Below are positions 1-41,526 of a stretch of DNA of 49,661 nucleotides, in pieces; position 1 is the stretch's first letter; the number at the start of each line of letters is the position of its first letter. Made by a program: the position numbers and the translations under genes. Below the pieces are notes generated by a model. It did not search any database and was not told the DNA's origin. It worked only from the letters and a program-made list of their open reading frames with translations. This stretch comes from Bacteroidaceae bacterium (GTDB lineage Bacteria > Bacteroidota > Bacteroidia > Bacteroidales > Bacteroidaceae): contig JAFSVI010000068.1 of the NCBI GenBank assembly GCA_017445145.1, positions 1-49,661 of the forward strand, read 5' to 3'.

Positions 1-2472
1 AACCTCTCCTCCTGCGCTCCCCGCGGGGGCATCTTTAGTCTTGTGCTTGGATTTCTTATGGGTTGAAGGTGCCGTAGCCCCTTTGGTGGCAGAGGGGTTG
101 GCTGGGGGTGCTATGAAGATGCCGAGGTAGTGCTCGCCGTTCATCACGTTGGGGTGGTCGAGGGCTTCGGCGTAGGTGACCCATCCTTCTTGCTGGTTGA
201 GGACGTAGCCCTCGGAGTTGCTCTCGTGGACGACGATGCCGGCACAGACGGGTGTGGGCTGGGTGAGACCCTCGTAGGTGACTTCCACGCGGGCGAAGTG
301 GCTGCCGCAGTCCTGGGTGATAAGGCGGGTCTCGCGGATGGAATCACGGGACTCGGCGGGCAAACCGCCGAGCACCGACGAAAGGGGACGGGCGGGCATG
401 GTCATGCGGACGGCGAAGCGCAGGGGGCCATTGTCGAGGATTTCTGCTTTCTCGTAATAGAGTGGATAGAGAAGACCCCCTCCCTGCTCCCCCGTAAGGG
501 GGAGGGCCTCCCCTCCCTTACGGGAGAGGTTAGGGGTGGGTCTTAGTGCTGCCGCCCCGGCACCGAGGGTGGCACCGACGGTGTAGGCATCCATGCCGGC
601 ACCGTGGTTGCGGTGATAAGTGTAGCCGCGGTGTACCTCGTTCCAGTCGAGGGGGCTGCCGCTCTTCTTGATGCGGTCGTTGACACCGTAGGAGGTGAGC
701 TCGTTGTGGTAGAGCTGGTCCTGGATGGGGTGGGGGGTGTTCTTGGTGAAGGTGTCGAAGCCGTAGGCGTTGTTCTTCATGTTCTTGTGGGCACCGGGGC
801 CGTAGAAGCGCCAGGCCGAGCGGTCGTTCTCCCAGACGAGGTCATCCCAGCGGTTGGGGTAGATGCGGCCGTTGGCGGTGAGCTCATAGTCCTGCGGCTG
901 ACCCTTGATCATGGAAAGTCCGATACTGCTCTGTGGACGCACGGTGCAGAAGACCAGCACCTTGCCGTCATGGGTGATCTGATAGGGCACCTCGTTGCCG
1001 TCGCTGTCCAGGACGATGAACTCGCGGGCGACGGCGCAATTCCCCTTTTTCAGGTCTTCCATCTTGGCAATCTCAATGACCTGAGAGATGTTCTCCTTGG
1101 TGGGGTTCTTCACTTCGGTGAACCAGAAGGCCTCGTGCCCGCGGTCGATGGGGCGAAGGGCGCGGGCACCGCCGGTGAGGGGGATGGCGGCGGACGAACC
1201 GCCGCCCACCGGGCCGGAGACGGTGGGGGTGCCGGGGGTGTGGTGGAAGATGGAGTTGTCCGAGGGAGAACCCTCGGGAACCGTAACGGGTGCGGGGATG
1301 AGCGGGTCGGCGTTGATGTAGCGAATCATTTCACAGGCGGCGAGGAGCCATGCGCCGGTGCCGAAGGGGGCTTGGGAGTGAGCATCCACGGTCTTGGTGG
1401 GGTCGGGCTTCTCGCCGATGGGCTGCACGAAACCGATGCTGCCGTCTGCCTGTAGGGCGGTCTCGGAGAGATACTTCCACGCCTTCTGGATGACGGGGCC
1501 ATAGGTGGCGTTGTCGAGGTAGCCGTTGTTGACGCCCCAGAGCATACCGTAGGTGAAGAAGGCGGTGCCGGAGGTCTCGGGGCCGGGAGCGTCATCCTCG
1601 CAGAGCATGGAGCGGCTCCAGTAGCCACCGGGCCGCTGCACACGGGCCACGCCCTCTGCCAGCTCGCGGAAACGCTGGACGAAGATGGGACGGTTCTTGT
1701 AGTCGTGCGGCATGTCGGCCAGCACCTTGGCGAGTCCAGCCAGCACCCATCCGTCGCCGCGCGCCCAGAAGCTCTTGCCGCCGTTGCAGGTGGTCTTCAC
1801 CTTGGGGTAGATATACTTGGCATCGCGGTAGTAGAGCTGCTCGTCCTTGTCGAACATGAGGCTGTCGCTCCAGAGGAAGTTCTCGGTGAGTTTGTCCAGA
1901 TATTTGATGTCGCCCGTGAGTTTATACATCTTGGTCATCACGGGCATGACCATGTAGAGGGCGTCGGCCCACCACCAGAAGTGGGTGTCCTCCATGGAGC
2001 ACTCATGGCTCATGACCTCGATGGCGCGCGCCACCTTGTAGGGGGCGGGCACGAGGTTATACATATCTATATAGGTCTGGAAGCAGATCTGCCAGTCGCC
2101 GAAGAGGACGAAGTCCTGTCCTTCGCCGTAGGTCTTGTATTTCCAAGCCCGGACATCATCGCTCTTAGCACCCTTCCACTCGTTGTGGCGGCACCACTTG
2201 TCGGTGTAGGCATACCAGTCGGCGCGGCCTGTGAGGCGGTAGGCCTCCATGTTGCCGGTGTGGTAGGCGGCGTGGTCCCAGAAGGAGCGGACGTAGGGGG
2301 TGTTATGGGCCTGCCAGTAGTTGTTGACCTTGATGATTTGGTCGAGAACCTTTCCTGAACGCTGGGTGGCTTCGGTGAAGGGGCCGCCGTCGTAGGAGAG
2401 GTCATTCGCTGACGCTGAAATGATAAATAATAAATGATAAATAATAAAAAATAACTTTGCTGTTGGTTTCAT
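1..2472 (-). CDS. Glycoside hydrolase family 105 (GH88-type) with DUF4861-like C-terminal region, 3' end cut by window edge
   Basis: The frame is open from the ATG at 2472 to base 1 (824 codons, no stop), so the C-terminus lies outside the window. Residues about 1-22 form a hydrophobic signal peptide. Residues about 30-380 read as an (alpha/alpha)6 barrel of the unsaturated rhamnogalacturonyl hydrolase type: HFWWWADALYMVMPVM around residue 170 carries the Asp expected at the catalytic position (D170), and SFWARGDGWVLAGL is the second typical family segment. The family removes the unsaturated uronate from pectin-lyase products. The part after about residue 400 resembles DUF4861, which is often fused to GH105 in Bacteroidota. 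Oddities: the signal peptide is built on an AT-rich repeat, residues about 643-666 are encoded by a palindromic repeat, two short GC-rich stem-loops lie in the frame, and a Lys/Ala/Ser/Thr-rich tract precedes the edge. Family call good; exact substrate uncertain. Confidence 0.85.
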   Translation of the reverse strand, partial: MKPTAKLFFIIYHLLFIISASANDLSYDGGPFTEATQRSGKVLDQIIKVNNYWQAHNTPYVRSFWDHAAYHTGNMEAYRLTGRADWYAYTDKWCRHNEWKGAKSDDVRAWKYKTYGEGQDFVLFGDWQICFQTYIDMYNLVPAPYKVARAIEVMSHECSMEDTHFWWWADALYMVMPVMTKMYKLTGDIKYLDKLTENFLWSDSLMFDKDEQLYYRDAKYIYPKVKTTCNGGKSFWARGDGWVLAGLAKVLADMPHDYKNRPIFVQRFRELAEGVARVQRPGGYWSRSMLCEDDAPGPETSGTAFFTYGMLWGVNNGYLDNATYGPVIQKAWKYLSETALQADGSIGFVQPIGEKPDPTKTVDAHSQAPFGTGAWLLAACEMIRYINADPLIPAPVTVPEGSPSDNSIFHHTPGTPTVSGPVGGGSSAAIPLTGGARALRPIDRGHEAFWFTEVKNPTKENISQVIEIAKMEDLKKGNCAVAREFIVLDSDGNEVPYQITHDGKVLVFCTVRPQSSIGLSMIKGQPQDYELTANGRIYPNRWDDLVWENDRSAWRFYGPGAHKNMKNNAYGFDTFTKNTPHPIQDQLYHNELTSYGVNDRIKKSGSPLDWNEVHRGYTYHRNHGAGMDAYTVGATLGAGAAALRPTPNLSRKGGEALPLTGEQGGGLLYPLYYEKAEILDNGPLRFAVRMTMPARPLSSVLGGLPAESRDSIRETRLITQDCGSHFARVEVTYEGLTQPTPVCAGIVVHESNSEGYVLNQQEGWVTYAEALDHPNVMNGEHYLGIFIAPPANPSATKGATAPSTHKKSKHKTKDAPAGSAGGEV
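352..380. repeat. Short in-gene stem-loop, family B
   Basis: CGGCGG, loop GCAAA, CCGCCG, followed by AGCACC. It lies inside the GH105 frame, where the minus strand reads SVLGGLPAES. One of six related stem-loops in the left 12 kb, all inside coding sequence. Confidence 0.6.
473..545. repeat. In-gene palindromic repeat made of two hairpins
   Basis: Two adjacent hairpins, CTCCCCCGTAAGGGGGAG and CTCCCTTACGGGAG, flanked by GACCCC on the left and GGGGTGGGTC on the right, so the whole unit is roughly symmetric. It is a variant of the larger CCCCTCTCC-type repeats at 3.8-9.8 kb. The GH105 frame runs through it without a stop and gains about 24 residues rich in Pro, Gly and Arg. Confidence 0.7.
1186..1212. 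repeat. Short in-gene stem-loop, family B
   Basis: GGCGGCGG, loop ACGAA, CCGCCGCC: a perfect 8-bp stem followed by CACC. It is inside the GH105 gene, where the minus strand reads VGGGSSAAIP, near the junction between the barrel and the DUF4861-like part. Confidence 0.55.
2418..2450. repeat. AT-rich interspersed repeat inside the GH105 signal peptide
   Basis: On the minus strand the bases are repeats of TTATTTATCATT. They encode the hydrophobic core of the GH105 signal peptide (LFFIIYHLLFIIS). The same repeat reappears in the opposite orientation at 2581-2620, just past the 3' end of the phosphoesterase gene, so the two copies flank the 100-160 bp between the genes. Confidence 0.6.
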
Positions 2473-2580
2473 AACATTAAGTATTATCTTTTGATGATTT
2501 GATAGTTGCAGTTAGTAACTTGATGAGTTCTTCACAATTACCCCAAAATCTGTGCTCTTTTCTGCGAGTATGTTATTCTG

Positions 2581-2620
2581 TATCATATTTATCATTTAAT
2601 ATTTATTATTTATCATTTAA
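2581..2620. repeat. AT-rich interspersed repeat, second copy
   Basis: Repeats of TTTATCATTTA / TATTTATTATTTATC run up to and slightly into the last codons of the DHH phosphoesterase gene. Related to the copy at 2418-2450. The rest of 2473-2580 shows no gene and no clear TAnnTTTG promoter box on the minus strand. Confidence 0.55.
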
Positions 2621-3906
2621 CTCTTTAGGAGTGGTAGATACTTCTGCACGGCTTTCTTGACGATGGCGAGGGCCTCGTCCATGGTGCCCCAGACTTCACC
2701 GCCGGCGGCGTTCTTGTGGCCGCCGCCGCCGAAAAACTCAGTGGCCATCTCGTTGGCGGGGAAGTCATCGACCGAGCGGAGGGAGACGCGGATGCAAGGG
2801 TGCTCGGTGTCCTCGCGGAGGAAGATGGAGAGCTTCATGCCCTGAATCTGAAGGGGGAGGTTGACCAGCCCCTCGGTGTCACCGTTGAGGATACCGAAAC
2901 GGCGACGCTCGGCGTTGGTGAAGGTCATGATGGCGGTGTGGGCTTTCTTCCAGACATCCAGCTTCACGTAGAGCATATAGCCCATGAGCTTCATGCGGTT
3001 GGGGCTGTAGGTGAAGAAGACGTTGCGGTAGATCTTGTCCTTATCGATGCCGTAGCTGAGGAGGATGCTGATGAGCTGGAAGATTTCGGGGCGGGTGCTG
3101 GCGTAAGTGAAAGCACCGGTGTCGGTCATCATGCCGGTGTAGAGGGAGGTAGCCTCGTCGTGGGTGAGAAGATTTCCGGCGGGGAAACCGCCGGACACCA
3201 ACGGCGGGGAGAGAGAAGGCAATGGGGAGAGGGCTTCCAATTCCAGCATGATGCGGAGGAGCACTTCGCAGGTGGAGGAGAGGTCGGGGTGGGAGATGAC
3301 GAGGTCTGCGATGCCGGGTTCGGGGTCGATGTGGTGATCGATCATGATGCAGCGGACGGTGTCGCTGAAAGCGGCATCGAGGGGTTGCAGGGGCATGCCC
3401 TGCCCGATGGGGAGGCGCGGACGGATGGCATCGCCGAGGGTCCACATCCGCTTGAGTTCGCCGTGGTCACACAGGATGAAGAGGTCTGCGTCCTCGATGA
3501 TGGGGCGCACCTCCTCTTCATGGTGTTCATAGACGAGGATGTCCTCGGCTCCGGGCACCCATTTCAAGAAGTCGGGGAAGATGGTAGGGGCGATGATGCG
3601 GATGTCTGCGTCGGGCAAACGGCGGCGTAGCCAGGAGGCCAGGGCTGTGGTGCTCCCGATGGCATCGCCGTCTGGACCTCGGTGGCAGGTGATGACGATG
3701 TGGCGGGCGGCAGCGAGGAGATCGTGCCAGAGGGTGAGCTGTTCGGGGGTGAGAAGAGGCTCGCCCACAAACCCAGCCACAGCCCCGACCCCTCTCCGAT
3801 TGGAAGTGGAAGCCTCAGCCCCGACCCCTCTCTGATTGGAGAGGGGAGTAGATACTACTTGACTATTGGATGGTTCTGCTGCTGTTGTTATCTTAATAGG
3901 TTCCAT
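2617..3906 (-). CDS. nrnA: DHH/DHHA1 phosphoesterase, NrnA type (oligoribonuclease / pAp phosphatase)
   Basis: The 429-residue product has the DHH-superfamily signature set: HRGPDGDAIGS (about 75-85) with the Asp-x-Asp metal ligands, a CDHGEL segment near 146, DHH as IDHHIDPE at 189-196, and the C-terminal DHHA1 substrate loop GGGGHKNAAGG at 393-403. Family members remove nucleotides from nanoRNAs and dephosphorylate 3'-phosphoadenosine 5'-phosphate in the cytoplasm. The N-terminal 45 residues are unusual: STPLSNQRGVGAEA and a second partial copy are encoded by palindromic repeats. The native protein probably began near LLTPEQLTLW (residue 51), so the repeat has lengthened it. A second insertion, PLVSGGFPAGN near 236-245, comes from a family-B stem-loop between the DHH and DHHA1 parts. 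The start at 3906 is the ATG in frame upstream of the repeats. Confidence 0.88.
   Translation of the reverse strand: MEPIKITTAAEPSNSQVVSTPLSNQRGVGAEASTSNRRGVGAVAGFVGEPLLTPEQLTLWHDLLAAARHIVITCHRGPDGDAIGSTTALASWLRRRLPDADIRIIAPTIFPDFLKWVPGAEDILVYEHHEEEVRPIIEDADLFILCDHGELKRMWTLGDAIRPRLPIGQGMPLQPLDAAFSDTVRCIMIDHHIDPEPGIADLVISHPDLSSTCEVLLRIMLELEALSPLPSLSPPLVSGGFPAGNLLTHDEATSLYTGMMTDTGAFTYASTRPEIFQLISILLSYGIDKDKIYRNVFFTYSPNRMKLMGYMLYVKLDVWKKAHTAIMTFTNAERRRFGILNGDTEGLVNLPLQIQGMKLSIFLREDTEHPCIRVSLRSVDDFPANEMATEFFGGGGHKNAAGGEVWGTMDEALAIVKKAVQKYLPLLKS
3176..3206. repeat. Short in-gene stem-loop, family B
   Basis: CCGGCGG, loop GGAAA, CCGCCGG: a perfect 7-bp stem followed by ACACCAACG. Lies in the phosphoesterase gene, where it encodes LVSGGFPAG between the two conserved domains. 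Confidence 0.65.
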
Positions 3907-3959
3907 ATCTGTTTGGTATATACTCCACTCTCCAATCGGAGAGGGGTCGGGGGTGAGGC
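3780..3959. repeat. Family-A palindromic repeats (one partial plus an inverted pair) at the 5' end of the phosphoesterase gene
   Basis: A partial unit (3780-3811) is followed by a full inverted pair at 3812-3959. One arm begins GCCTCAGCCCCGACCCCTCT and contains a small hairpin (CTCTCTGATTGGAGAG); the other ends CCAATCGGAGAGGGG then TCGGGGGTGAGGC. The phosphoesterase start codon (3906) lies in the spacer, so the left half of the pair has become its N-terminal coding sequence and the right half is upstream. Confidence 0.85.
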
Positions 3960-3995
3960 TTTTTCCCTTGTCTGTTGGGTTGGGGGTGGGTCTTC

Positions 3996-6431
3996 TTATT
4001 TTGTTTTTACTTCACTCCAGGCAGGCGGGTCTATGCCGAGGAGGTTCTTGACAAAGAAGTCGAAGCGCTTGTGCTCGCCATAGGCTTCACCCACGGTGTG
4101 GTGAGCACCGGGGATGACCACCAGCTCAAAGGGTTTGTTGGCCTTGATGAGTGCATTGGCCACCTGCATGGTGCTGGCGGGATCCACGTTGTCATCCAGC
4201 TCACCGACGACGAGCATTAGGGGACGCTCAAGGCGGTAGGCGTTCTCCACGTTGGAGCACTCGACGTAGGAGGAGTCAACGGGATAGGACATCCATTGCT
4301 CGTTCCACCATATCTTGTCCATGCGGTTGTCGTGACAGCCGCAAGCGCTGTAGGCAGCCTTGTAGAAGTCGCCATGGAAGAGGACGGCGGCGGTGCTCTC
4401 CTGGCCTCCAGCAGAGCAACCGTAGATGCCCACGCGGTCAATGTCCATATAGGGATATTTCTGTGCGGCGGCTTTAATCCACGCGATGCGGTCGGGGAAG
4501 CCTGCATCCTTCAGGTTCTTGTAGCAGACCTCCTCGAACTTCTTGCCCCGGTTGCTGGTGCCCATGGCATCGAGCTGCACGACAATGAAGCCGAGGTTGG
4601 CGAGGGCGGTGGTGTAGTAGTTGAAAGGTTGGAAGGACTTGGGGACGTAGCTGTCGCCGGGACCGGCATAGATGTACTCGATGACGGGATATTTCCTGGA
4701 GGGGTCGAAGTTGGCGGGGCGCTGGATGATGCCCCACATGGGAGTGGTGCCGTCGCGGCCTGGGGCGATGAAGATTTCGGGTGCCACCCAGCCGGCGGAG
4801 ATGAGGGAGGAGATGTCGGCGGTTGCAAGAAGAGCCTCACCCCCTACCCCTCTCCCAAGGAGAGGGGAGTGATTACCTATGCTAACGGTTTCACCATTGT
4901 TTCCTTTTGTATATACTCCCCTCTCCTTGGGAGAGGGGTTGGTGGTGAGGCTGCTGAGGTTCCGCACCACAGTGACGGGTGGGGTGTCCTGGGTGGAATA
5001 GGTGTCGATGAAGGCGGTGTAGTCCTCGTTGAAGCGGGCGGAGTGGTTGCCTGGCTCGGGGGTGAGGTCGGTGAAGCCTGTGCCGTCGAGGTTGACGCGG
5101 CAGTAGTGGATGTGATAGGGATCCTCTTCGGGGTGGATGCCGTTGGCGGTGAAGATGATGAAGCCGCGTTCCACGTCAATGTGGAGGACACGGCGGACAC
5201 AGAAGGTGCCGCGGGTGAGCTGCAGGGAGGGGCAGTCGTTGCCAGTGGCGGCGAATACGCCGCCCACCCGACCATGGGCGGCAGAGGATGCACCACCAGC
5301 TATTGAAGTTTGGGAGGTCTTCTTGCCTTTGGCTGCCTTTCCTTTGAGGGGGAGGGTGGTGTCAAAGAGGTAGAGGTGGGGGAAACCGTCGCGCTCGGAG
5401 AGCCAGAGGATGAGGCTGTCGCCGCGGAGGTCACGGCGGTAGTTGTTAGAGTAGCGGACATATTTCTCCTCGCGCTCCTCGATGAGGGTGCGGACATTGC
5501 CGTCCACTGCCATTTCATAGACGCGGTAGAGGTGGTGGCCGCGCTGGTTATACTCGAAGCGGATGGCATGGGAATCCCGGCACCATTCGGGGCGGGAGAG
5601 GTCATACTGGTTGGCGATGAGTTCGGGAGCGGGGCAGACGGTGCGGCCGGTGGCGACCTCTATCATGTAAGGTGTCTTCTGCGCCAGCTCGTCGCCGGGC
5701 TTGGCGTATTCCTGCTTGTGGAGGATGGGCTGCAACTGGTCGGTGGGGGAGGACTCCACGTAATAGACGTAGCGCTTCTCGATGGGGCGGATGCGGGTGG
5801 TGGCGAGGTAGCGGCCGTCGGGGCTCCAGGAGATGTAGCTGCTGAAGTAATGGCTGAGGGTGCCTTCGGTGGTGAGGGCGCGGGCTTCGCTGCCGTCGGG
5901 CTTGGCGATATAGACGTTGTCGTTGCGGATGAAGGCCGCGAGGGAGGAGTCTGGGGAGAGGACGGGGTCGCCGCTGCGCTCGTCATCGGTTTCCATCCAG
6001 TGGCGCTCTTGGTGGCGCTTGGAGGGGTTGGCGATGAAGCGGGCGCGCTGGTTGTTGTCGCGACGGGCAAACCGCCGCGCACCAACGCCATCGAAGGGGA
6101 ATCTGCGGGAGGGGTCGGACTCGATGGGGCGGTCGGCGGTGCTGTCGGCGAGGGTGATGGTGCCGTCATCATTGATTTGGCCGAAGTGCCAGAGACCGCG
6201 TTCACCGTCGGTGAGGTGATACTGGAAACGGTGATTGTCTATCCAGCGGCAGTCGTCGGCGTGGTTCTTGACTTTTTGCCAGGTGAAGGTGCGCTGGAGG
6301 GCGTAGGCGCGGTTATAGTCATCGACGGTGCCCTGGGCATGGAGGGGGAACTGCAACGATGTTGCAGCAAAGAGGACGAGGAAGTGTCTCTTTATGAGAA
6401 GGAGGTGACTCATCATTGGGAGATGTTTCAT
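3996..6431 (-). CDS. S9 family peptidase, dipeptidyl-peptidase IV-like
   Basis: The 811-residue product has a signal peptide (cleavage likely after LHAQ, about residue 33; M7 at 6413 is an alternative start), a DPP-IV-type beta-propeller and a C-terminal alpha/beta-hydrolase domain. The triad is visible: nucleophile S673 in GIYGCSAGGQES, D746 in GELDDNVDP and H778 in PGAHHTVGE. Family members act in the periplasm or at the surface and release X-Pro or related dipeptides; which specificity applies here is not clear. Three repeat-derived stretches are read through: about residues 494-533 from a 118-bp family-A pair between propeller and catalytic domain, AAHGRVGGVFAAT near 385-396, and GVGARRFARRD near 115-125. 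None removes a catalytic residue, so the enzyme may still fold. It follows the heme-propeller gene on the same strand. Confidence 0.9.
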   Translation of the reverse strand: MKHLPMMSHLLLIKRHFLVLFAATSLQFPLHAQGTVDDYNRAYALQRTFTWQKVKNHADDCRWIDNHRFQYHLTDGERGLWHFGQINDDGTITLADSTADRPIESDPSRRFPFDGVGARRFARRDNNQRARFIANPSKRHQERHWMETDDERSGDPVLSPDSSLAAFIRNDNVYIAKPDGSEARALTTEGTLSHYFSSYISWSPDGRYLATTRIRPIEKRYVYYVESSPTDQLQPILHKQEYAKPGDELAQKTPYMIEVATGRTVCPAPELIANQYDLSRPEWCRDSHAIRFEYNQRGHHLYRVYEMAVDGNVRTLIEEREEKYVRYSNNYRRDLRGDSLILWLSERDGFPHLYLFDTTLPLKGKAAKGKKTSQTSIAGGASSAAHGRVGGVFAATGNDCPSLQLTRGTFCVRRVLHIDVERGFIIFTANGIHPEEDPYHIHYCRVNLDGTGFTDLTPEPGNHSARFNEDYTAFIDTYSTQDTPPVTVVRNLSSLTTNPSPKERGVYTKGNNGETVSIGNHSPLLGRGVGGEALLATADISSLISAGWVAPEIFIAPGRDGTTPMWGIIQRPANFDPSRKYPVIEYIYAGPGDSYVPKSFQPFNYYTTALANLGFIVVQLDAMGTSNRGKKFEEVCYKNLKDAGFPDRIAWIKAAAQKYPYMDIDRVGIYGCSAGGQESTAAVLFHGDFYKAAYSACGCHDNRMDKIWWNEQWMSYPVDSSYVECSNVENAYRLERPLMLVVGELDDNVDPASTMQVANALIKANKPFELVVIPGAHHTVGEAYGEHKRFDFFVKNLLGIDPPAWSEVKTK
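4834..4951. repeat. Family-A inverted repeat pair inside the S9 peptidase gene
   Basis: 118 bp from GCCTCACCCCCTACCCC to GGTGGTGAGGC. The two ends are inverted copies, and each arm itself contains a hairpin (CTCTCCCAAGGAGAG and CTCTCCTTGGGAGAG). The spacer (TTACCTATGCTAACGG to TTTTGTATATAC) can be aligned with the spacer of the copy at 9728-9845, which is also exactly 118 bp. The peptidase frame stays open, giving SPKERGVYTKG and SPLLGRGVGGEA. Confidence 0.9.
5247..5282. repeat. Short in-gene stem-loop, family B-like
   Basis: GGCGGCG, loop AATA, CGCCGCC: a perfect 7-bp stem followed by CACCC. The segment is in the propeller part of the S9 peptidase and encodes HGRVGGVFAAT, beside a Lys-rich stretch (LKGKAAKGKK). 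Confidence 0.5.
6055..6090. repeat. Short in-gene stem-loop, family B
   Basis: CGACGG, loop GCAAA, CCGCCG, then CGCACCAACG. The stem has one A/C mismatch. It lies in the S9 peptidase gene but is read in a different frame from the copies in the phosphoesterase and GH2 genes (here GVGARRFARRD), so the DNA rather than a peptide is what is shared. Confidence 0.55.
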
Positions 6432-6552
6432 TTCATTTTGAGGTAGGCGGGAATGCCTGTGGCGTGGTGGCTGTGTCCTCTATTGGGACTGTTGCATCTT
6501 GAGGTAGGCGGGAACGTCTGTAGCGTGGTGGCTGTGTCCTCTATCTGGACTA
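6431..6552. repeat. 61-bp tandem repeat derived from the 3' end of the upstream gene
   Basis: Two consecutive 61-bp units (6431-6491 and 6492-6552) share GAGGTAGGCGGGAA and GCGTGGTGGCTGTGTCCTCT. A third, more diverged unit starts in phase at 6553 and is the last coding stretch of the heme-propeller gene (PAQLKMK-stop). In minus-strand reading each unit ends like that C-terminus: PAYLKMQ and PAYLKMK-stop. The whole S9-peptidase leader is therefore made of this array. Confidence 0.8.
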
Positions 6553-8256
6553 TTTCATCTTCAGCTGGGCAGGGGTGGCATCCTTCTTGATGAGGGCGGC
6601 GAACTCCTGCGGGCGGATGGTGACGGGTCCAGAGAGGAACTCGGGGATGTTGTAGCTGCGGAGGAACTGGCGGTGATACTGTGGGTCATCCTGTGGCAGC
6701 TCGAAGGGTCGGCTGAAATGGCCATTGCCATCGTGGTGGGCGATGAAGGGACGGGTGAAGTTGCCGTCGGTGCGGCGCGTGGAGAAGATGACCCATGCGC
6801 CATTGCTGGACCAGCAGTGCCAGCTCTCCACGTCGGGTGAGTTGAGCTCGGTGATGCAGCGGATGTGGCTGGGGAGTGGTGTGCGCAGCCCTTGTGCCTC
6901 GCGGAGACTGTCGGCGATGTTCTCCCGATCGACATTATTGGCCATCGGTGGCAGCACATCCTCGGACAGACTGTTGGGGCTGTAGATGGTGACGGGTGTG
7001 GGCTCCACGGGCTGAGCCTGGGTGAGGTCCATCAGATAGAGGTCTGCGGTGTTGTGCCAGATGTGGAAGACACCGAACTGCCCCTCGGTGAACATCAACC
7101 AGCGGCCATCGGGCGAGACACGAGGCAGGGTGACGCTGCGGTTGCGGGCCACGGCATCATAGATGAGTTCGCGTGGACCGAAGGTGAGGGTCTGCTCGTT
7201 GAAGGGTTTACGGTAGAGGTTATACTGCACCTCCTTGTAGTTCTTGATGAGCTCGAAGTCCATGTTGACCGTATCGCGCTTCTCCCAGTGGCAGCTCACA
7301 TAATAGATGTACTTGCCGTCGGGGCTCCAGAAGGGGAAGCAGTCGAAGTCTGTGGTGTCACGGGTGATGGGCGTGACCTCGTTGGTCTCCAGATTGTAGA
7401 AGATGAGGTTGCTCTTGGTGTCCTGCACCTCTATCTTCTGCACGTCGCGTGTGTGGAAGCTCTGGCCTGTGCTGTTGGTGGAATAGACAATCCAAGGCTT
7501 CGACGGATGCCAGGTGGGATAGACGCCTGCGGAGAGGGTGCTGTCTGTCTTGAGGTTGATCTTCTGGAGCTTGCCGTCGTAGGCGATGACGGTGCCTCCG
7601 AGGTACTGGCGGACGTGGAACTGGACGCGCTGCGGGTTGTACCATTGTGAATGGTGACAGTTGATGCACTGCCCGTTGGCTTCATCGCCGTTGATCATGT
7701 TGCCATAGATGAGGCTCTCGTCGAAGTTTTCCAAGCACCGCTGGTTGAGGGTCAGGTCCTCGTAGGTGACGTAACTGGGCGAGATGAGACGGTAGGAGAT
7801 ATAGGGGTCGATGCTGTCCCTGGAGACGGTAATGGTGAAGGGCTTGTTGCGCTGCCATGTGCTGCCGGATTGGGTGAAGACCTCAACGGTGATGGTGCCG
7901 TCGGCAGCGAGGGCGGCATCCTTCATTTGCTGCCACTTCTTCAAGCCCGGACGGACATCCTCGCCGCCGAGCGTCCACTGCTCACTGCCCGCCGTGAAGC
8001 GGGTGACAAAGTCGGTGGTGGTGCTGTCTGCATCAATGTGGAAGTGCAACGGAGCAATGTTCACGGGGACGGTGACGCCGATGTAGTCGGGGTAGATGGA
8101 GGGAAGGGTGGGGGAGTCCTCAAAGGTGGTGGGGACGGAGGGGGAAGTGCAGGCGGTGAGGAAGAGCAAGCAAAGAACAGCCTCACCCCCGACCCCTCTC
8201 CGATTGGAGAGGGGAGTATATAGTCTTGTTAATAGCTTATGGAATAATATTTTCAT
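6550..8256 (-). CDS. Lipoprotein with TolB/PD40-type propeller and one c-type heme motif
   Basis: 568 residues. A lipobox, LFLTAC with C36 as lipid-bearing Cys, directs it to a membrane facing the periplasm or surface. The central and C-terminal parts contain repeated propeller motifs (FPFWSPDGKYIYYVSC, PRVSPDGRWLMFT, WHCWSSNGAWVIFSTRR) like TolB/WD40-like PD40 repeats. A single CINCHH motif (C197, C200, H201) could bind heme c covalently. The N-terminal third has a beta-rich carbohydrate- or protein-binding look but no family I can name. A family-A repeat has been built into the signal peptide: residues about 12-26 (YTPLSNRRGVGGEA) separate the charged n-region from the hydrophobic core. The DUF6057-like gene lies directly upstream on the same strand. 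Role unknown; an electron-transfer or sensing function is only inference from the heme motif. Confidence 0.75.
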   Translation of the reverse strand: MKILFHKLLTRLYTPLSNRRGVGGEAVLCLLFLTACTSPSVPTTFEDSPTLPSIYPDYIGVTVPVNIAPLHFHIDADSTTTDFVTRFTAGSEQWTLGGEDVRPGLKKWQQMKDAALAADGTITVEVFTQSGSTWQRNKPFTITVSRDSIDPYISYRLISPSYVTYEDLTLNQRCLENFDESLIYGNMINGDEANGQCINCHHSQWYNPQRVQFHVRQYLGGTVIAYDGKLQKINLKTDSTLSAGVYPTWHPSKPWIVYSTNSTGQSFHTRDVQKIEVQDTKSNLIFYNLETNEVTPITRDTTDFDCFPFWSPDGKYIYYVSCHWEKRDTVNMDFELIKNYKEVQYNLYRKPFNEQTLTFGPRELIYDAVARNRSVTLPRVSPDGRWLMFTEGQFGVFHIWHNTADLYLMDLTQAQPVEPTPVTIYSPNSLSEDVLPPMANNVDRENIADSLREAQGLRTPLPSHIRCITELNSPDVESWHCWSSNGAWVIFSTRRTDGNFTRPFIAHHDGNGHFSRPFELPQDDPQYHRQFLRSYNIPEFLSGPVTIRPQEFAALIKKDATPAQLKMK

Positions 8257-8339
8257 ATTGTATATGATTTATCTTTATGTGTTAATCGTTATTTGGTATA
8301 TACTCCCCTCTCCGAAAGGAGAGGGGTTGGGGGTGAGGC
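8180..8339. repeat. Family-A inverted repeat pair across the start of the heme-propeller gene
   Basis: 160 bp from GCCTCACCCCCGACCCC to GGTTGGGGGTGAGGC, with inner hairpins CTCTCCGATTGGAGAG and CTCTCCGAAAGGAGAG. The AT-rich spacer (8220-8295) contains the start codon of the heme-propeller gene at 8256. The left arm is coding (signal peptide), the right arm is leader. Confidence 0.9.
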
Positions 8340-8393
8340 TGTTTTCCTTGTTTGAGGGGGCGGGGTGAGGCTGGGGTTGAGGGGAGGGTCTCT

Positions 8394-10439
8394 TTAATTG
8401 GTCTTCTGGTTCCTTACCAAGAAGTAGAAGTAATAGAAGGTGTTGCCGAATTGTGGATAGAAGGCGACGGCCTTCTGCTCCTCGGTCATGGGTCCGCACT
8501 GCTCGTTGAACTTCATGAAGCGCTCGTAGGTGTCACGGGTGGATTTGTCGAAGGGCATGTGGGAGATATCGACTTTGTTCTCCAGGTGGCCGTAGAGGTA
8601 GGCAGCTTCCTGATAATGGCGCGGCATGTGGACATCGGGGTTCAGGTTGGCATACTTCATGAAGCGCGGCCAGAAGATATCGATGTCCTTCATGATGAGG
8701 GCGCAGAGGAGCGTCATCTCCTGGAAGAGCTTGTCATCGCCGTTGCCGTGGGCGAAGGTCTGGAGGAGGTACATCTCCACGAGGGTGTTGTCGCCGTCGA
8801 GGCGGTCGGGGTAGGTCATCATGTGCATGATGGGTAGGAACTCGCGCGTCATCTGCTCGTCCATGAGGGGTTTGCCGGCACGGATGGCGGCCTCTGCTTT
8901 CTGGAGGTCGAAGGCATCGGGTGTGGCGAGGAGGCGTTCATAACGCTCGGCCCATTCGCGGTGGAAGGTTGTCTTCTTCAAGAGGTCCAGGTACTTGCGT
9001 GCCACCGTCCATTCTTGGTTGAGGAGGCTTGTGCGGGCCATGAACTTCAGGGTCTCGGCTTTCCAACCGAACTCCACACCGTCCTCCATGCACCAGCGGT
9101 AGCAGAAGTTCTCCTTGCCGTAGTGGTAATAGATGAGCTTGCCGCCCACCTGCGTCATGTGCACTTTCCACGGGGCGTTCTGGGGCGTGGAGCCTTCGGG
9201 GTAGTTGAACATCTCGTTGCCCGCACGTCCCAGACGGAAGAGAGCCAGGTTCTTATACATCACAATCTGGCGGGTGGGGCGCACGTCGGTGCTGCCATCG
9301 CGGGCGTAGGTGAGGACACGCTCCCAGTCGCCGTCCTCGATGGCGCGGTTCATGGCGAGCTCCTTCTGGAAGTTGACATCGTTATACCAGACGGTGCTGA
9401 CACCGATAATGGCGGCAAAGAGGAGAAGGAGAACAATGACAGCCTCACCCCCGACCCCTCTCCAATAGAGAGGGGAGTGGATACCTTTGATGGTTGTGGG
9501 CTTTAGATAGTTGGTCAGGAAACTCACCACCAAGAGAAGGAGGAAGGCGAGGATGATGGCGTAATAGGGAAGGCGGTACTGCTCGAAGCTGTCCTGGCTA
9601 TAGCGCATGGAGGGGAGGGCGGCCACATAGACAAAGGCGCGCTCGGTCATCTCAAAGAGGCGCTGGTAATAGATTTGCGGGACGGCGGCGATGAGGGCGA
9701 GGGCAAGGAGAAGGCGCACGCCAAACAGCCTCACCCCCGACCCCTCTCCCAAGGAGAGGGAAGTGGTTACCTTTGCTTGTGGCTTTATCTCTGTTTCTTT
9801 GGGTATATACTCCCCTCTCCTTGGGAGAGGGGTCGGGGGTGAGGCTACTAACAACCCTGTGGCCCCTAATGCCCAGGCACCGAAGAAGGGGTAGCCGGCG
9901 ATGCAGACGAGAGCCATCCAAACGAGGCGTGACCAGCGGGCTGCCTTGGCGGGGAGGGTCATGTCAAGCAGGTGCTGGATGACGAGACAGAGCACGGCAA
10001 AGAGGACACCGATGGTGGGCACGAAGAGGTGGCCGGGCAGTTTCTGGTAGAACAGCCAGTAGCCGGTCTGCACAAAGCAAGCCATGAGGGCGAGGGGCAC
10101 GAGGGTCGTGAGTGCCATCCACGGCCCTTTCAGCCGATAGACCCAGGTGAGCAAGAGGCAGATGATGAGCCATAGGCCGCAGAGGATGGCGGTGCCCAGC
10201 CAGGGATAATAGAAATACTGGGTGAGATAGGTGGCGATCCACGAGGCGGCGCCGCCGGGGTATTGCATGACTGTCTTCCAGTAGAGTCCCGTAGGCAGCC
10301 ACAGGTTCAGCTCCTGGGCACGCAACAGAAACTCGGTGTCACGCTGCACGAGGCGGATGCCGAAGATGGCCAACAGCATAATAACAACCAGAAGCCATGG
10401 GGTACGTTTAGAGAACAAAGCCAAAGATGGATATTTCAT
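8394..10439 (-). CDS. DUF6057-like polytopic membrane protein
   Basis: 681 residues. The N-terminal half is strongly hydrophobic with about eight or more predicted membrane spans (for example WLLVVIMLLAIFGI, ILCGLWLIICLLLTWVY, VLFAVLCLVIQHLL, AIILAFLLLLVVSFL). The C-terminal half (about 345-681) is soluble and helical, with segments such as AIEDGDWERVLTYARDG and ALFRLGRAGNEMFNY that resemble TPR-like repeats. This arrangement matches the DUF6057 family as I know it; function is unknown. Two family-A repeats are in frame: about residues 199-237 (a 118-bp pair, between two membrane spans) and about 318-333 (a single unit, before a membrane span). Both fall in loops. The start codon overlaps the stop of the upstream GxxExxY gene (ATGA), so the two are translationally coupled. 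Confidence 0.75.
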   Translation of the reverse strand: MKYPSLALFSKRTPWLLVVIMLLAIFGIRLVQRDTEFLLRAQELNLWLPTGLYWKTVMQYPGGAASWIATYLTQYFYYPWLGTAILCGLWLIICLLLTWVYRLKGPWMALTTLVPLALMACFVQTGYWLFYQKLPGHLFVPTIGVLFAVLCLVIQHLLDMTLPAKAARWSRLVWMALVCIAGYPFFGAWALGATGLLVASPPTPLPRRGEYIPKETEIKPQAKVTTSLSLGEGSGVRLFGVRLLLALALIAAVPQIYYQRLFEMTERAFVYVAALPSMRYSQDSFEQYRLPYYAIILAFLLLLVVSFLTNYLKPTTIKGIHSPLYWRGVGGEAVIVLLLLFAAIIGVSTVWYNDVNFQKELAMNRAIEDGDWERVLTYARDGSTDVRPTRQIVMYKNLALFRLGRAGNEMFNYPEGSTPQNAPWKVHMTQVGGKLIYYHYGKENFCYRWCMEDGVEFGWKAETLKFMARTSLLNQEWTVARKYLDLLKKTTFHREWAERYERLLATPDAFDLQKAEAAIRAGKPLMDEQMTREFLPIMHMMTYPDRLDGDNTLVEMYLLQTFAHGNGDDKLFQEMTLLCALIMKDIDIFWPRFMKYANLNPDVHMPRHYQEAAYLYGHLENKVDISHMPFDKSTRDTYERFMKFNEQCGPMTEEQKAVAFYPQFGNTFYYFYFLVRNQKTN
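9442..9485. repeat. Single family-A repeat unit in the DUF6057-like gene
   Basis: One arm only: GCCTCACCCCCGACCCC, hairpin CTCTCCAATAGAGAG, then GGGAGTGGATACC. The gene reads through it as GIHSPLYWRGVGGEA, just before a hydrophobic segment. Confidence 0.85.
9728..9845. repeat. Family-A inverted repeat pair inside the DUF6057-like gene
   Basis: 118 bp, the same length as the copy at 4834-4951 and alignable with it through the spacer (GTTACCTTTGCTTGTGG to TTTGGGTATATAC). Ends are GCCTCACCCCCGACCCC and TCGGGGGTGAGGC. The gene reads through as SPPTPLPRRGEYIPKE and SLSLGEGSGVRLF, in another frame than the peptidase copy. Confidence 0.9.
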
Positions 10440-10843
10440 GTGTGTTTCAGTGTCTTGAAGTTGGGGACTCGTTCAAAGGTGATGTCGTTGCGTCCAAGGT
10501 TGACAAGCAAACCTAACTCATAGCCAGTGGCGAACAGGTAGTTCAACAACTGTGCTTTGTGTTCTCCAAGCAGACGTTCAACGGCTTTCAGTTCAACGAT
10601 AATTATGTTGAAGCAGATGAAGTCGGGGCGCAATAGTTTCTCCAATTCATGTCCTTTATAATGAATGCAGATGGACGGTTCGCGTGTGAAGGGAATTCCC
10701 CGAAAGTTCAGTTCCAGTGCCAGACATTCTTGATATACTGGTTCCGTGAAACCAGTTCCCATACTGCGGTTCACTTCTCTGCAAGCATCGAGAATAGCAC
10801 CGCATTCTGCATAGTATGGTATGTTGTTTCTGTTTTCTGTCAT
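10436..10843 (-). CDS. GxxExxY family protein
   Basis: 135 residues. The name-giving motif is present as GFTEPVY in the N-terminal helix, and the middle has ICIHYKGHELEKLLRPDFI followed by IIIVELKAVE, which fits the PDDEXK nuclease-like fold (D, then E-x-K) suggested for this family. The family is small, common in Bacteroidota and of unproven function. The stop overlaps the start of the DUF6057-like gene by four bases (ATGA). Unlike the five following genes it carries no interspersed repeat, which fits its short, compact fold. Confidence 0.85.
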   Translation of the reverse strand: MTENRNNIPYYAECGAILDACREVNRSMGTGFTEPVYQECLALELNFRGIPFTREPSICIHYKGHELEKLLRPDFICFNIIIVELKAVERLLGEHKAQLLNYLFATGYELGLLVNLGRNDITFERVPNFKTLKHT

Positions 10844-11286
10844 GATGTGTTGATTATATTAACAACGACTGATAACGAGATACGGTTCTAACGAACCGAG
10901 GGCTAACGCCGTAACAACGGAAACACTTTGTGCTAACGCGCAAAGGCATGTCCTGCAAGTTGTGGAGTATTGTCCTGCAAGTTGTGATTCGTCTTCTTGC
11001 AATATGTGAATAGTGTCATCGGTAATGTCTATAAGTTAATTCTCCACATCTTGTTATGTGCTTGGCATCCAACGGGAATATTAGTTTGTATTAGCGAAGC
11101 ATTAGACTGGACAAGCTATCAGGAATTGTTACATAGTTTATCACAGGACATGCCCTTGGGCGTTAGTCCAAGGCGTTTTCGTTGTGGCATTGCGAGTTGA
11201 AACCCAGCACCCGTTAGGGGTGCTGAGTCGTTTATGGTCGTTGTTTAATATTGACAACATCTGTTGTTATTGAGCAATGAAAAAAA
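10844..11286. repeat. Non-coding region with a cluster of TAAC/GTTA-loop stem-loops
   Basis: No convincing gene in 443 bp. It holds stem-loops with the same loop: CGGTTC-TAAC-GAACCG (10883-10898); a weak GGC-TAAC-GCC (10901-10910); CTTTGTGC-TAAC-GCGCAAAG (10926-10945); and in opposite orientation CCTTGGGC-GTTA-GTCCAAGG (11154-11173) and CAGCACCC-GTTAG-GGGTGCTG (11205-11225). A 16-bp direct repeat TGTCCTGCAAGTTGTG occurs at 10949-10964 and 10971-10986, with a degenerate third copy near 10995. The AT-richer centre (about 11010-11150) shows no motif I recognise. Confidence 0.7.
11205..11225 (-). terminator. Possible terminator of the GH2 gene
   Basis: An 8-bp perfect stem (CAGCACCC / GGGTGCTG) about 60 bp past the GH2 stop codon. 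On the minus strand it is followed by GGTTTC, a poor T-tract, so intrinsic termination is only possible. It also belongs to the TAAC/GTTA-loop cluster. Confidence 0.4.
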
Positions 11287-40173: not shown

Positions 40174-41526
40174 ATGACTCACAATATCAAACACCATCAT
40201 CATAGAGGCTGGAAGGCTATGACAATGCTCTTTGCCTTGTGCCTCGCTCTTGCCGGCACCGCGACCTTCACGGCTTGCTCCGCCGACGACCCCTACTTCA
40301 CCGTGACGGAGGATGACGACCCCCGCATCCTCAACACCGACCTCTCGGACAAGACCCTCGACCGCAAGAGCAACCTGAAGATTGAGATCAGGGTCACACC
40401 CATGCAGTACACCACCGTCACCTGGCTGCTCAACGGCGTGCAGATTTTTGAAGGCGCCACCCTCGACCAGACACTGCCCGTGGGCAACCACGTCCTGAAG
40501 ATTGTCGCCACGACCACCAAGGGCAAGAGCACCTCGCGCACCATCAACGTCACCGTGCTCCCCGCCGACGGCGACCCCGTTTTGGCTGCCGACGCCAAGT
40601 CGCGCTGGCTCACCGTGGGTGCCACCAAGACCGTTGCCTGTGAGAACGTCACCTCCGTGAGCCGGGTCATCGTGGGCGACAAGGAGGCCACCAACGTCTC
40701 CTATGCCGACGGACACATCACCTTCACCGTGCCCACGATGGACGAGGGCGAGTACATGCTCTTCATCGAGGATGCCAGTGGCACGCGCTATGGCTGCGGC
40801 ATGTTCACCGTGAGCAACGACGCTTACGTGGATCCGGGCATCAAGGAAACAGTGCTCTGGGAGGGTGCCACCGACATCAACTGGGGCGACAGCAACGTGA
40901 CCATCACGGCCGAGACGCTGGCCGGCGTGCCTGTGGGCGCCACGATACGTGTTTGCTACGAGATTATCGAAGCCGAGTACCACGCCCTGCGCATCACCAC
41001 CCCCTGGTGGGGCGACAACGCCGAGGACCAGGTGGTGGCGCAGTTCGACCTCACGGCCGAGACGCCCAACCCATTTGAGTTCACCTACACCGAGGCCAAC
41101 AAGGCCATCGTCGATGAGCGCGGCGGCATGCTCGTCGTGGGCTTCGGCTACAAGCTGACAAAGGTGATTGCCGTGGAGAACGCCGGCCCCGTGGAGAACA
41201 CCCTCTGGGAGGGTGCCACCGACATCAACTGGGGCGACAGCAACGTGACCATCACGGCTGAGGAGATGGCTACCGTGCCTGTGGGGGCCACCATGCGCGT
41301 CTATTACGACGTCATCGAGGCCGACTACCACGCCCTGCGCATCACCACTCCCTGGTGGGGCGACAACGCCGAGGACCAGGTGGTGGCGCAGTTCGACCTC
41401 ACGGCCGAGACGCCGAACCCCTACGTGTTCACCTACACCGAGGCCAACAAGGCCATCGTCGATGAGCGTGGCGGCATGCTCGTCGTGGGCTTCGGCTACA
41501 AGCTGACGCGCATCACCTATGAGTGA
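40174..41526 (+). CDS. Surface glycan-binding lipoprotein with tandem C-terminal domains
   Basis: 450 residues. The start at 40174 gives a His-rich n-region (KHHHHRGWK); M16 at 40219 is an alternative. Lipobox TFTACSADD (C35). Residues about 45-135 resemble a PKD/Ig-like domain (TVTWLLNGVQIFEGATLDQ), 140-220 an IPT-like domain, and 225-450 two copies of one 116-residue beta-sandwich starting LWEGATDINWGDSNVTI. Tryptophans and WWGD in each copy suit carbohydrate binding. Position right after susD is that of SusE/SGBP proteins, which hold polysaccharide at the surface. No enzyme motif seen. Confidence 0.8.
   Translation: MTHNIKHHHHRGWKAMTMLFALCLALAGTATFTACSADDPYFTVTEDDDPRILNTDLSDKTLDRKSNLKIEIRVTPMQYTTVTWLLNGVQIFEGATLDQTLPVGNHVLKIVATTTKGKSTSRTINVTVLPADGDPVLAADAKSRWLTVGATKTVACENVTSVSRVIVGDKEATNVSYADGHITFTVPTMDEGEYMLFIEDASGTRYGCGMFTVSNDAYVDPGIKETVLWEGATDINWGDSNVTITAETLAGVPVGATIRVCYEIIEAEYHALRITTPWWGDNAEDQVVAQFDLTAETPNPFEFTYTEANKAIVDERGGMLVVGFGYKLTKVIAVENAGPVENTLWEGATDINWGDSNVTITAEEMATVPVGATMRVYYDVIEADYHALRITTPWWGDNAEDQVVAQFDLTAETPNPYVFTYTEANKAIVDERGGMLVVGFGYKLTRITYE
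40855..41520. repeat. Tandem duplication inside the glycan-binding gene
   Basis: Two copies at an offset of 348 bp (116 codons), from CTCTGGGAGGGTGCCACC at 40855 and again at 41203. Long stretches are identical in DNA, including third positions, so the duplication is recent or kept alike by conversion. Differences cluster around DGAETLAG / AEEMATV and CYEIIEAEY / YYDVIEADY. Confidence 0.9.

Follow-up and report, generated by a model that had tools for sequence, protein, structure and literature searches.

In-frame palindromic repeats, probably mobile, in unrelated protein genes of a Bacteroidaceae genus

Introduction

In-frame mobile palindromes have so far been regarded chiefly as an oddity of Rickettsia and as a lesser aspect of the repetitive extragenic palindromic (REP) sequences. 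Here, a repeat termed family A is described from contig JAFSVI010000068.1 of a Bacteroidaceae bacterium (assembly GCA_017445145.1), a stretch of 49,661 nt referred to below as the window. Ten units of family A were found at 3775-9846, carried by four minus-strand genes (DHH, S9, PD40 and DUF6057). Family A is very probably a non-autonomous mobile palindrome, built like a REP doublet forming hairpins (REPIN), with about half of its copies in genes as inserts in loops, linkers and N-termini.

Of the systems described to date, the Rickettsia palindromic elements (RPEs) are the closest. These palindromes of about 100-150 bp sit in frame within numerous protein genes that are unrelated to one another and whose products are apparently functional, according to part of PMC10969869. 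Family A palindromes are likewise found in frame in unrelated protein genes. Unlike RPEs, they belong to another phylum and show a start-codon form, 45-nt singles, a dominant frame and several families per linker; the likeness is one of description, and no membership among the RPEs is claimed. REPs, bacterial interspersed mosaic elements and REPINs share with family A a high copy number, an arrangement in inverted doublets and a unit that is a palindrome of 20-50 nt. They differ in that family A showed neither a GTAG/CGTC tag nor, as far as was found, an association with the REP-associated tyrosine transposase (RAYT), and about half of its sampled copies lay in genes. Intragenic GTAG/CGTC REPs are nevertheless on record, Opitutus terrae and R. 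conorii being two examples (part of PMC3733652). Bacterial miniature inverted-repeat transposable elements (MITEs) such as RU, ERIC and Correia are also short and non-autonomous, have terminal inverted repeats and sometimes form in-frame fusions (part of PMC10969869). In contrast to MITEs, family A has a palindrome inside each arm and no target duplication, and no parent transposon was found, although no dedicated search for one was made. Coding palindromes in the mitochondria of Nematomorpha are long inverted repeats in translated genes, but they are not mobile inserts, and conserved protein is encoded by each of their arms, as a part of PMC6649704 describes.

In the open-licence literature, to which the search was limited, elements of this kind were not found described for Bacteroidota, and text searches with the peptides and the core matched unrelated papers. 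Coding palindromes as such are already known from RPEs and some REPs; it is the scale, the frame bias and the shared hotspots that set the present case apart.

Structure of the repeat in the window

The window makes up one contig (C188) of a draft genome of 2.73 Mb that is in 202 contigs and 91% complete. Allowing up to three mismatches, GCCTCACCCCCNACCCCTCTCC matched at 3776, 3812, 3938 (minus), 4834, 4930 (minus), 8180, 8318 (minus), 9442, 9728 and 9824 (minus). Against these ten units, 0.01 were expected by chance and the maximum in 100 shuffles was one, so that chance is excluded and the repeat noticed in an earlier note on this DNA is real. The elements and the four genes that carry them, the latter identified by Pfam, are as follows.

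3775..3960, minus strand: three units at the start of the DHH gene, comprising a pair (3811-3960) and an extra direct unit; the downstream half reads as TPLSNQRGVGAEA
4833..4952, minus strand: inverted pair of 120 nt in the S9 gene, residues ~494-533 (SLTTNPSPKERGVYTKGNNGETVSIGNHSPLLGRGVGGEA), dominant frame
8179..8340, minus strand: inverted pair of 162 nt spanning the PD40 start (ATG 8256), dominant frame
9441..9485, minus strand: single 45-nt unit in the DUF6057 gene (site 2), GIHSPLYWRGVGGEA, dominant frame
9727..9846, minus strand: inverted pair of 120 nt in the DUF6057 gene (site 1), ASPPTPLPRRGEYIPKETEIKPQAKVTTSLSLGEGSGVRL, second frame
2617..3906, minus strand: DHH/DHHA1 phosphoesterase gene
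3996..6431, minus strand: S9 peptidase (DPP IV-like) gene
6550..8256, minus strand: PD40 propeller gene
8394..10439, minus strand: DUF6057 gene

The earlier note had listed 3780-3959 as a pair or single unit; the repeat was present there, but the region 3775-3960 holds three units, two of them in the same direction. It had also placed the elements within genes or across their starts; the three sites in S9 and DUF6057 are inside genes, and two of the five elements span the DHH and PD40 starts. These two pairs (3811-3960 and 8179-8340) were clearly coding in their downstream halves only, that of PD40 lying within a putative lipoprotein signal peptide (MKILFHKLLTRLYTPLSNRRGVGGEAVLCLLFLTAC). Of the different frames reported for the repeat, only that of DUF6057 site 1 stood apart, the S9, DUF6057 site 2, DHH and PD40 elements sharing one frame. 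A supposed variant of the repeat proved open in frame but to be of a different repeat family:

473..545, minus strand: inverted pair of a family other than A (LRPTPNLSRKGGEALPLTGEQGGGL) in a putative GH105-like gene, a name taken over from the sequence reader

The unit of ~45 nt combines AGCCTCACCCCCGA with a hairpin (CCCCTCTCC..GGAGAGGGG), and its inner end is like GTATATAC, for which GTAACTAC, GTAATCAC and GTATCCAC were variants in the elements inspected. It occurs singly or as a tail-out inverted pair, usually of 117, 120 or 129 nt. The arms 3810-3855/3916-3961, 4833-4870/4915-4952, 8176-8222/8297-8343 and 9727-9771/9802-9846 were 91-95% complementary. Both pairs reported as 118 bp were exactly that (120 nt counting the flanking A..T), and 4830-4955 aligned with 9724-9849 without gaps at 85%, the spacer included. 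In the elements inspected, the palindrome ended in neither GTAG nor CGTC and the tag was GTANNTAC-like. Peptides encoded by family A in predicted proteins included SLTPDPSPKGEG and GVGGEA.

As RNA, a pair was computed to form a single long hairpin, at -82.6 kcal/mol for 4833..4952 (z -11.6 against shuffles), -90.6 for 9727..9846 (z -13.2) and -78.6 for 3811-3960 (z -11.3). Such stable hairpins would suit selected regulatory or structural modules, retained for their benefit and not as selfish DNA; ribosome-pausing mRNA hairpins, attenuators, start modules and useful linkers would be of this kind. However, the single unit 9441..9485 folded at only -21.3 (z -1.4, not significant), which 21 of 200 shuffles matched or bettered. 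A known RNA identity was dropped: the 11 Rfam matches to 3600-10000 at E up to 1, mostly miRNA hairpins, were read as chance because they were far below gathering scores.

Position in genes and reading frame

Elements were classified by a hexamer-based coding model, for which the window and genus loci served as the training set, within fetched genus regions only, which had been picked by similarity to in-gene copies. From 141 family A elements, seven near contig edges were dropped, leaving 134 in which some overlapping units were counted apart. A total of 64 of the 134 (37/65 pairs and 27/69 singles) were in a gene, in frame and open. The other 70 had one coding flank (42), none (18), an internal stop (6) or flanks in differing frames (4). 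Since random positions in the same loci had same-gene flanks at a rate of 0.48-0.50, genes are not avoided and no depletion is visible. REPs, in comparison, are mostly intergenic as described in parts of PMC3733652 and PMC8266576. For the genome designated G018 the sample was nearly complete, with 41 of the 42 units inside fetched regions. This genome has 19 pairs: 11 were in genes, without exception in the dominant frame, and the other eight lay between genes on the same strand.

Frame use was not arbitrary: among the 64 in-gene, in-frame elements, 56 used offset 0, eight offset 1 and none offset 2. Nor are all frames open in the genus; the window elements are read through, but offset 2 was closed in 36 of 37 in-gene pairs, usually via the TGA of GGGGGTGAGGC, so that stops explain part of the bias. 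For pairs with two open frames, 14/16 used offset 0 (p 0.002), and of the singles open in all three frames, 11/14 used the dominant one (p 0.0007), these p values being optimistic because of shared descent and sampling. Within the 120-nt class, spacer differences were evenly spread over the codon positions (175/157/149), hence there is no sign of peptide conservation and only openness seems to be kept. Purifying selection on the insert peptide was accordingly set aside, and the even spread argues against the inserts being useful linkers under selection.

Host proteins and placement of the inserts

Across two sets, 20 host proteins were scanned with Pfam, of which three had no match. The first set included CTP synthase, UvrD helicase, a carbamoyltransferase, an S41 peptidase, an arabinofuranosidase and an outer-membrane efflux protein. 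The second included carbamoyl-phosphate synthase, valyl-tRNA synthetase, glutamate synthase, altronate dehydratase, a radical-SAM protein and a MutS-domain V/Smr (MutS2-like) protein. Reading frames were open and domains complete, and decay of the genes is highly improbable.

With PDB 1js1, the transcarbamylase aligned to either side of its 40-residue insert, and likewise to either side of a second one of 15 residues. The S9 insert lay between stretches aligned to PDB 2d5l, and that of CTP synthase between stretches aligned to PDB 9kao. Based on these alignments, the inserts would sit in loops, which presumably tolerate them. Many in-gene sites were of the kinds at which persistence had been proposed, namely variable loops, interdomain linkers and signal peptides, or were gene ends, and the frame was open.

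Two further arrangements were seen. At L416:2-4942, minus strand, an aminotransferase domain is followed by glutamate synthase in one open frame with several palindrome units, either a fusion or a missing stop. In L317 and L318 (genome G002), two different open reading frames (ORFs) have a YTLDGR-like C-terminal tail, immediately preceded in both by the same 15-residue unit. We take the tail to be perhaps a secretion signal, and the unit perhaps a linker before it.

Evidence for and against mobility

Dispersal was evident in G018, where copies in unrelated genes, at non-orthologous sites, were up to 91% identical over 120 nt. The window sites were compared with 20 loci, one being the second copy of the locus on contig C172 of the window's own genome. 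At the orthologous sites, a full family A copy was found in 0/19 for S9, 0/19 for DUF6057 site 1 and 0/20 for DUF6057 site 2, the last showing no resemblance to the unit in any of the 20. The G057 S9 gene carried a family A pair in a different linker. Arms matched better within than between elements (0.82 vs 0.64 in the loop region; 0/10000 permutations, 68 pairs), which suits a fold-back or hairpin step, with a contribution from subfamilies. Mobility as a process would account for the dispersal and for the absence of full copies at these sites.

Several observations weigh against this interpretation. The choice of regions favoured in-gene, dominant-frame copies, all genomes compared were draft metagenome-assembled genomes (MAGs), and copies in G141 and G150, or common to G071, are not independent. 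In a site shuffle test of 79 non-self comparisons, with ~0.8 passes expected by chance at 0.01, degraded relatives of DUF6057 site 1 were detected in 3/19 orthologues (G071, G016 and G003). The DHH-site unit was also present at the same site in the relative G071; thus, with these degraded relatives, not every insertion is new. At the S9 site, G057 holds a related unit from another family and G056 a short possible remnant (p 0.01). The net gain at DUF6057 site 2 was 30 nt (96 vs 66 nt, with 66 in 13/20 orthologues). Because this gain falls short of the 45 nt of the unit, the site lacks clean borders and a clean 45-nt insertion was rejected; exact insertion borders could not be set from the orthologue comparison. 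The mobilising enzyme is a further such point: 0/30 loci of the Y1 (HUH) transposase domain were flanked by the unit at up to four mismatches and three at 5-6, in incomplete genomes, and no Y1 hit was obtained in the copy-rich G018 (~80% complete).

A short match in DHH of G092 passed the shuffle test, probably by chance, and some further orthologues of DUF6057 site 1 showed other repeat peptides on inspection.

The elements could also be ordinary REPINs that happen to be in genes and are moved by a RAYT. The inverted doublets of palindromic units fit this, as does the target site: a direct flank repeat of at least 4 nt was found in 0/64 in-gene copies (shuffled expectation 0.003). The absence of target duplication is the expectation for HUH enzymes, and the duplication of a MITE moved by a DDE transposon was not seen. 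Y1 domains were present in 41 of 101 genus genomes. However, the Y1 results given above, the different hairpins that many Y1 genes have of their own and the GTANNTAC-like tag speak against such an origin, as does the in-gene share, and we consider it unlikely. A RAYT link was set aside as unlikely, no clean unit standing beside the Y1_Tnp loci examined in these incomplete genomes.

Sites shared by several repeat families

Several repeat families occupied the same enzyme loops in different species. In CTP synthase (n=30, genus), the loop after TDEIKRRML measured 18-30 nt in nine and 63-138 nt in 21. The long loops were of at least four sequence types, none family A, and 17/21 matched sequence outside CTP synthase (E <1e-3; comparison without a shuffled control). 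Family A occurred at a second site in 3/30.

The linker between CarA and CarB of carbamoyl-phosphate synthase was cut out in 32 of 34 loci, and 28/32 matched repeats outside the gene compared with 0/32 after shuffling, the library searched being repeat-rich, which inflates matches. A fold at z < -3 was obtained for 22/32, and family A, or part of it, was found in three. In L240 (4927-5043), L488, L390 and others, CarA and CarB form one open frame, and the linker at their junction, which consists largely of repeat sequence, changes from one species to the next. Among the 28 is the linker of the window genome itself (AFPPGLRRASAAFPPGL; L519, L439, contigs C171 and C80), with 82% identity over 106 nt to another contig of that genome. 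Its fold was ordinary (z 0.7), and it is a possible linker repeat without a hairpin fold.

That the same linker is repeat-filled in most species could be taken to favour selected modules. Against this, sites and families vary among species and some do without, the loop being short in nine of the 30 CTP synthases.

Gene-start form

A 129-nt form at gene starts supplies an ATG at a fixed position. The ATG lay at element offset 54 in six cases from three genomes (G018 L112, L114, L115 and L116; G071 L393; and the window DHH gene, with ATG 3906 in the pair 3811-3960, which spans the start codon) and at offset 55 in a seventh (G071 L394). These elements precede genes, with upstream stops in some. 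The 129-nt start and linker forms are homologous: their spacers were 0.53 identical, compared with 0.30 (at most 0.335) after shuffling, and conserved inner ends account for some of the 0.53. The fixed ATG is a point for the reading as selected modules, which overall we regard as quite improbable.

Proposed model and implications

Machinery acting in trans, and causing no target duplication, would spread family A through the genomes of a rumen Bacteroidaceae genus. Roughly half of the copies would persist in genes, in signal peptides, at gene ends and in loops or linkers between domains, where a length of 3n and the stop-free dominant frame would turn the repeat into a hydrophilic insert of 15 or 40 residues. 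The homologous 129-nt form, whose spacer contains an ATG as well as stops, would give the downstream gene its first residues, and tolerant sites may be shared by several unrelated palindrome families. Parasitic DNA appears to have supplied part of the variable loops and linkers of proteins, among them core enzymes.

More tentatively, linkers may be a habitat in which many unrelated palindrome families contend for the same core-enzyme loops and displace each other. Linker and start forms would interconvert by few point changes, and the coding form would be the main reservoir of a selfish DNA that writes linkers and N-termini. We regard this extension as possible but lean slightly against it.

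Compared with the earlier examples, the setting here is a rumen genus with genomes of ~2-4 Mb, palindromes in core enzymes, one dominant frame and recurrent sites. Three matters become testable: new protein segments arising from selfish DNA, the passage of ribosomes through a hairpin of 80-90 kcal/mol, and the share of linker-length variation in gut bacteria that is mobile-element debris. Such peptides also contaminate protein families and design data.

Distribution

Family A was found in 19/41 relatives by element search and in 101/139 genus genomes with a G018 copy as query. Exact-core units (up to two mismatches) numbered 42 in G018, 15 in G002, 54 in G071, 42 in G109, 49 in G150, 48 in G141 and 86 in G154, and a reversed-pattern control in the same seven relatives gave none. 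Elsewhere, the core was present in at least 117 genome stretches. Among the 80 matches listed, nine had titles that place them outside Bacteroidota, from Chloroflexi including Anaerolineae, Patescibacteria, Lambdaproteobacteria, SAR324, Acidobacteria and Armatimonadetes. Two loci among these listed matches showed the same inserts and protein contexts as G018, and one of them (L223) is from Bacteroidaceae bacterium RGIG3623 of goat rumen, from which we infer that the genus probably belongs to the rumen Bacteroidaceae.

In viral contigs the core occurred in 41 stretches, of which four loci were inspected. For a phage or plasmid carrier, no match was obtained in either collection at E 1e-5. Separately, the 43.5-kb IMGVR_UViG_3300020057_000061, filed as viral (L274, L278, L280 and others), held more than 20 core copies, nearly all in one direction; phage-like ORFs were present, and the copies would be translated in part.

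Origin of the window tract and gene neighbourhood

The run of four consecutive genes with elements is not typical of the window's genome. All ten close copies (up to two mismatches) lie at C188:3776-9845, within 6 kb, and the homologous locus on C172 has no element. With every copy in 6 kb of a contig that duplicates an element-free locus, the five-element tract was probably acquired from an element-rich relative, or C188 was misbinned.

A second palindrome, family B (CGGCGGTTTGCCCGCCG, up to two mismatches), showed a similar distribution, with four copies before 6.1 kb in the window (354-370, 1188-1204, 3177-3193 and 6061-6077, all minus) and none in 238 kb from 20 other contigs. It sits in GH105, DHH and S9 in differing frames (GGLPAES, SGGFPAG and ARRFARR). 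Hairpin density per 10 kb was 10.0 at 1-11000, compared with 1.0 over the remainder of the window and 2.4 in the 238-kb sample. The tetranucleotide distance of the first 10 kb was 1.75 and 1.72, compared with a 95th percentile of 1.59 and a maximum of 3.03 for native chunks.

This atypical composition and hairpin density, the fragmented MAG and the presence of the locus twice in the genome could each be read as signs of decayed genes, an assembly error or a chimaeric contig. Set against them are the open frames and complete domains, and the same family and insertion type in many independent MAGs. The order GH2-DUF6057-PD40-S9-DHH was conserved, GH2 adjoining the operon in 19/20 loci and GH105 in 12/20. 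As the GH2 neighbour is kept, the gene order is genuine and a chimaera at 11 kb is unlikely; as a whole, an artefact of this kind is highly improbable. Misbinning of the contig, one of the two origins given above, would leave the finding unchanged.

Two other repeats were noted in the window. Between PD40 and S9 (6431-6552) lie two 61-nt direct repeats, 87% identical, and at 40855-41502 there are two 300-nt copies, 91% identical and spaced 348 nt.

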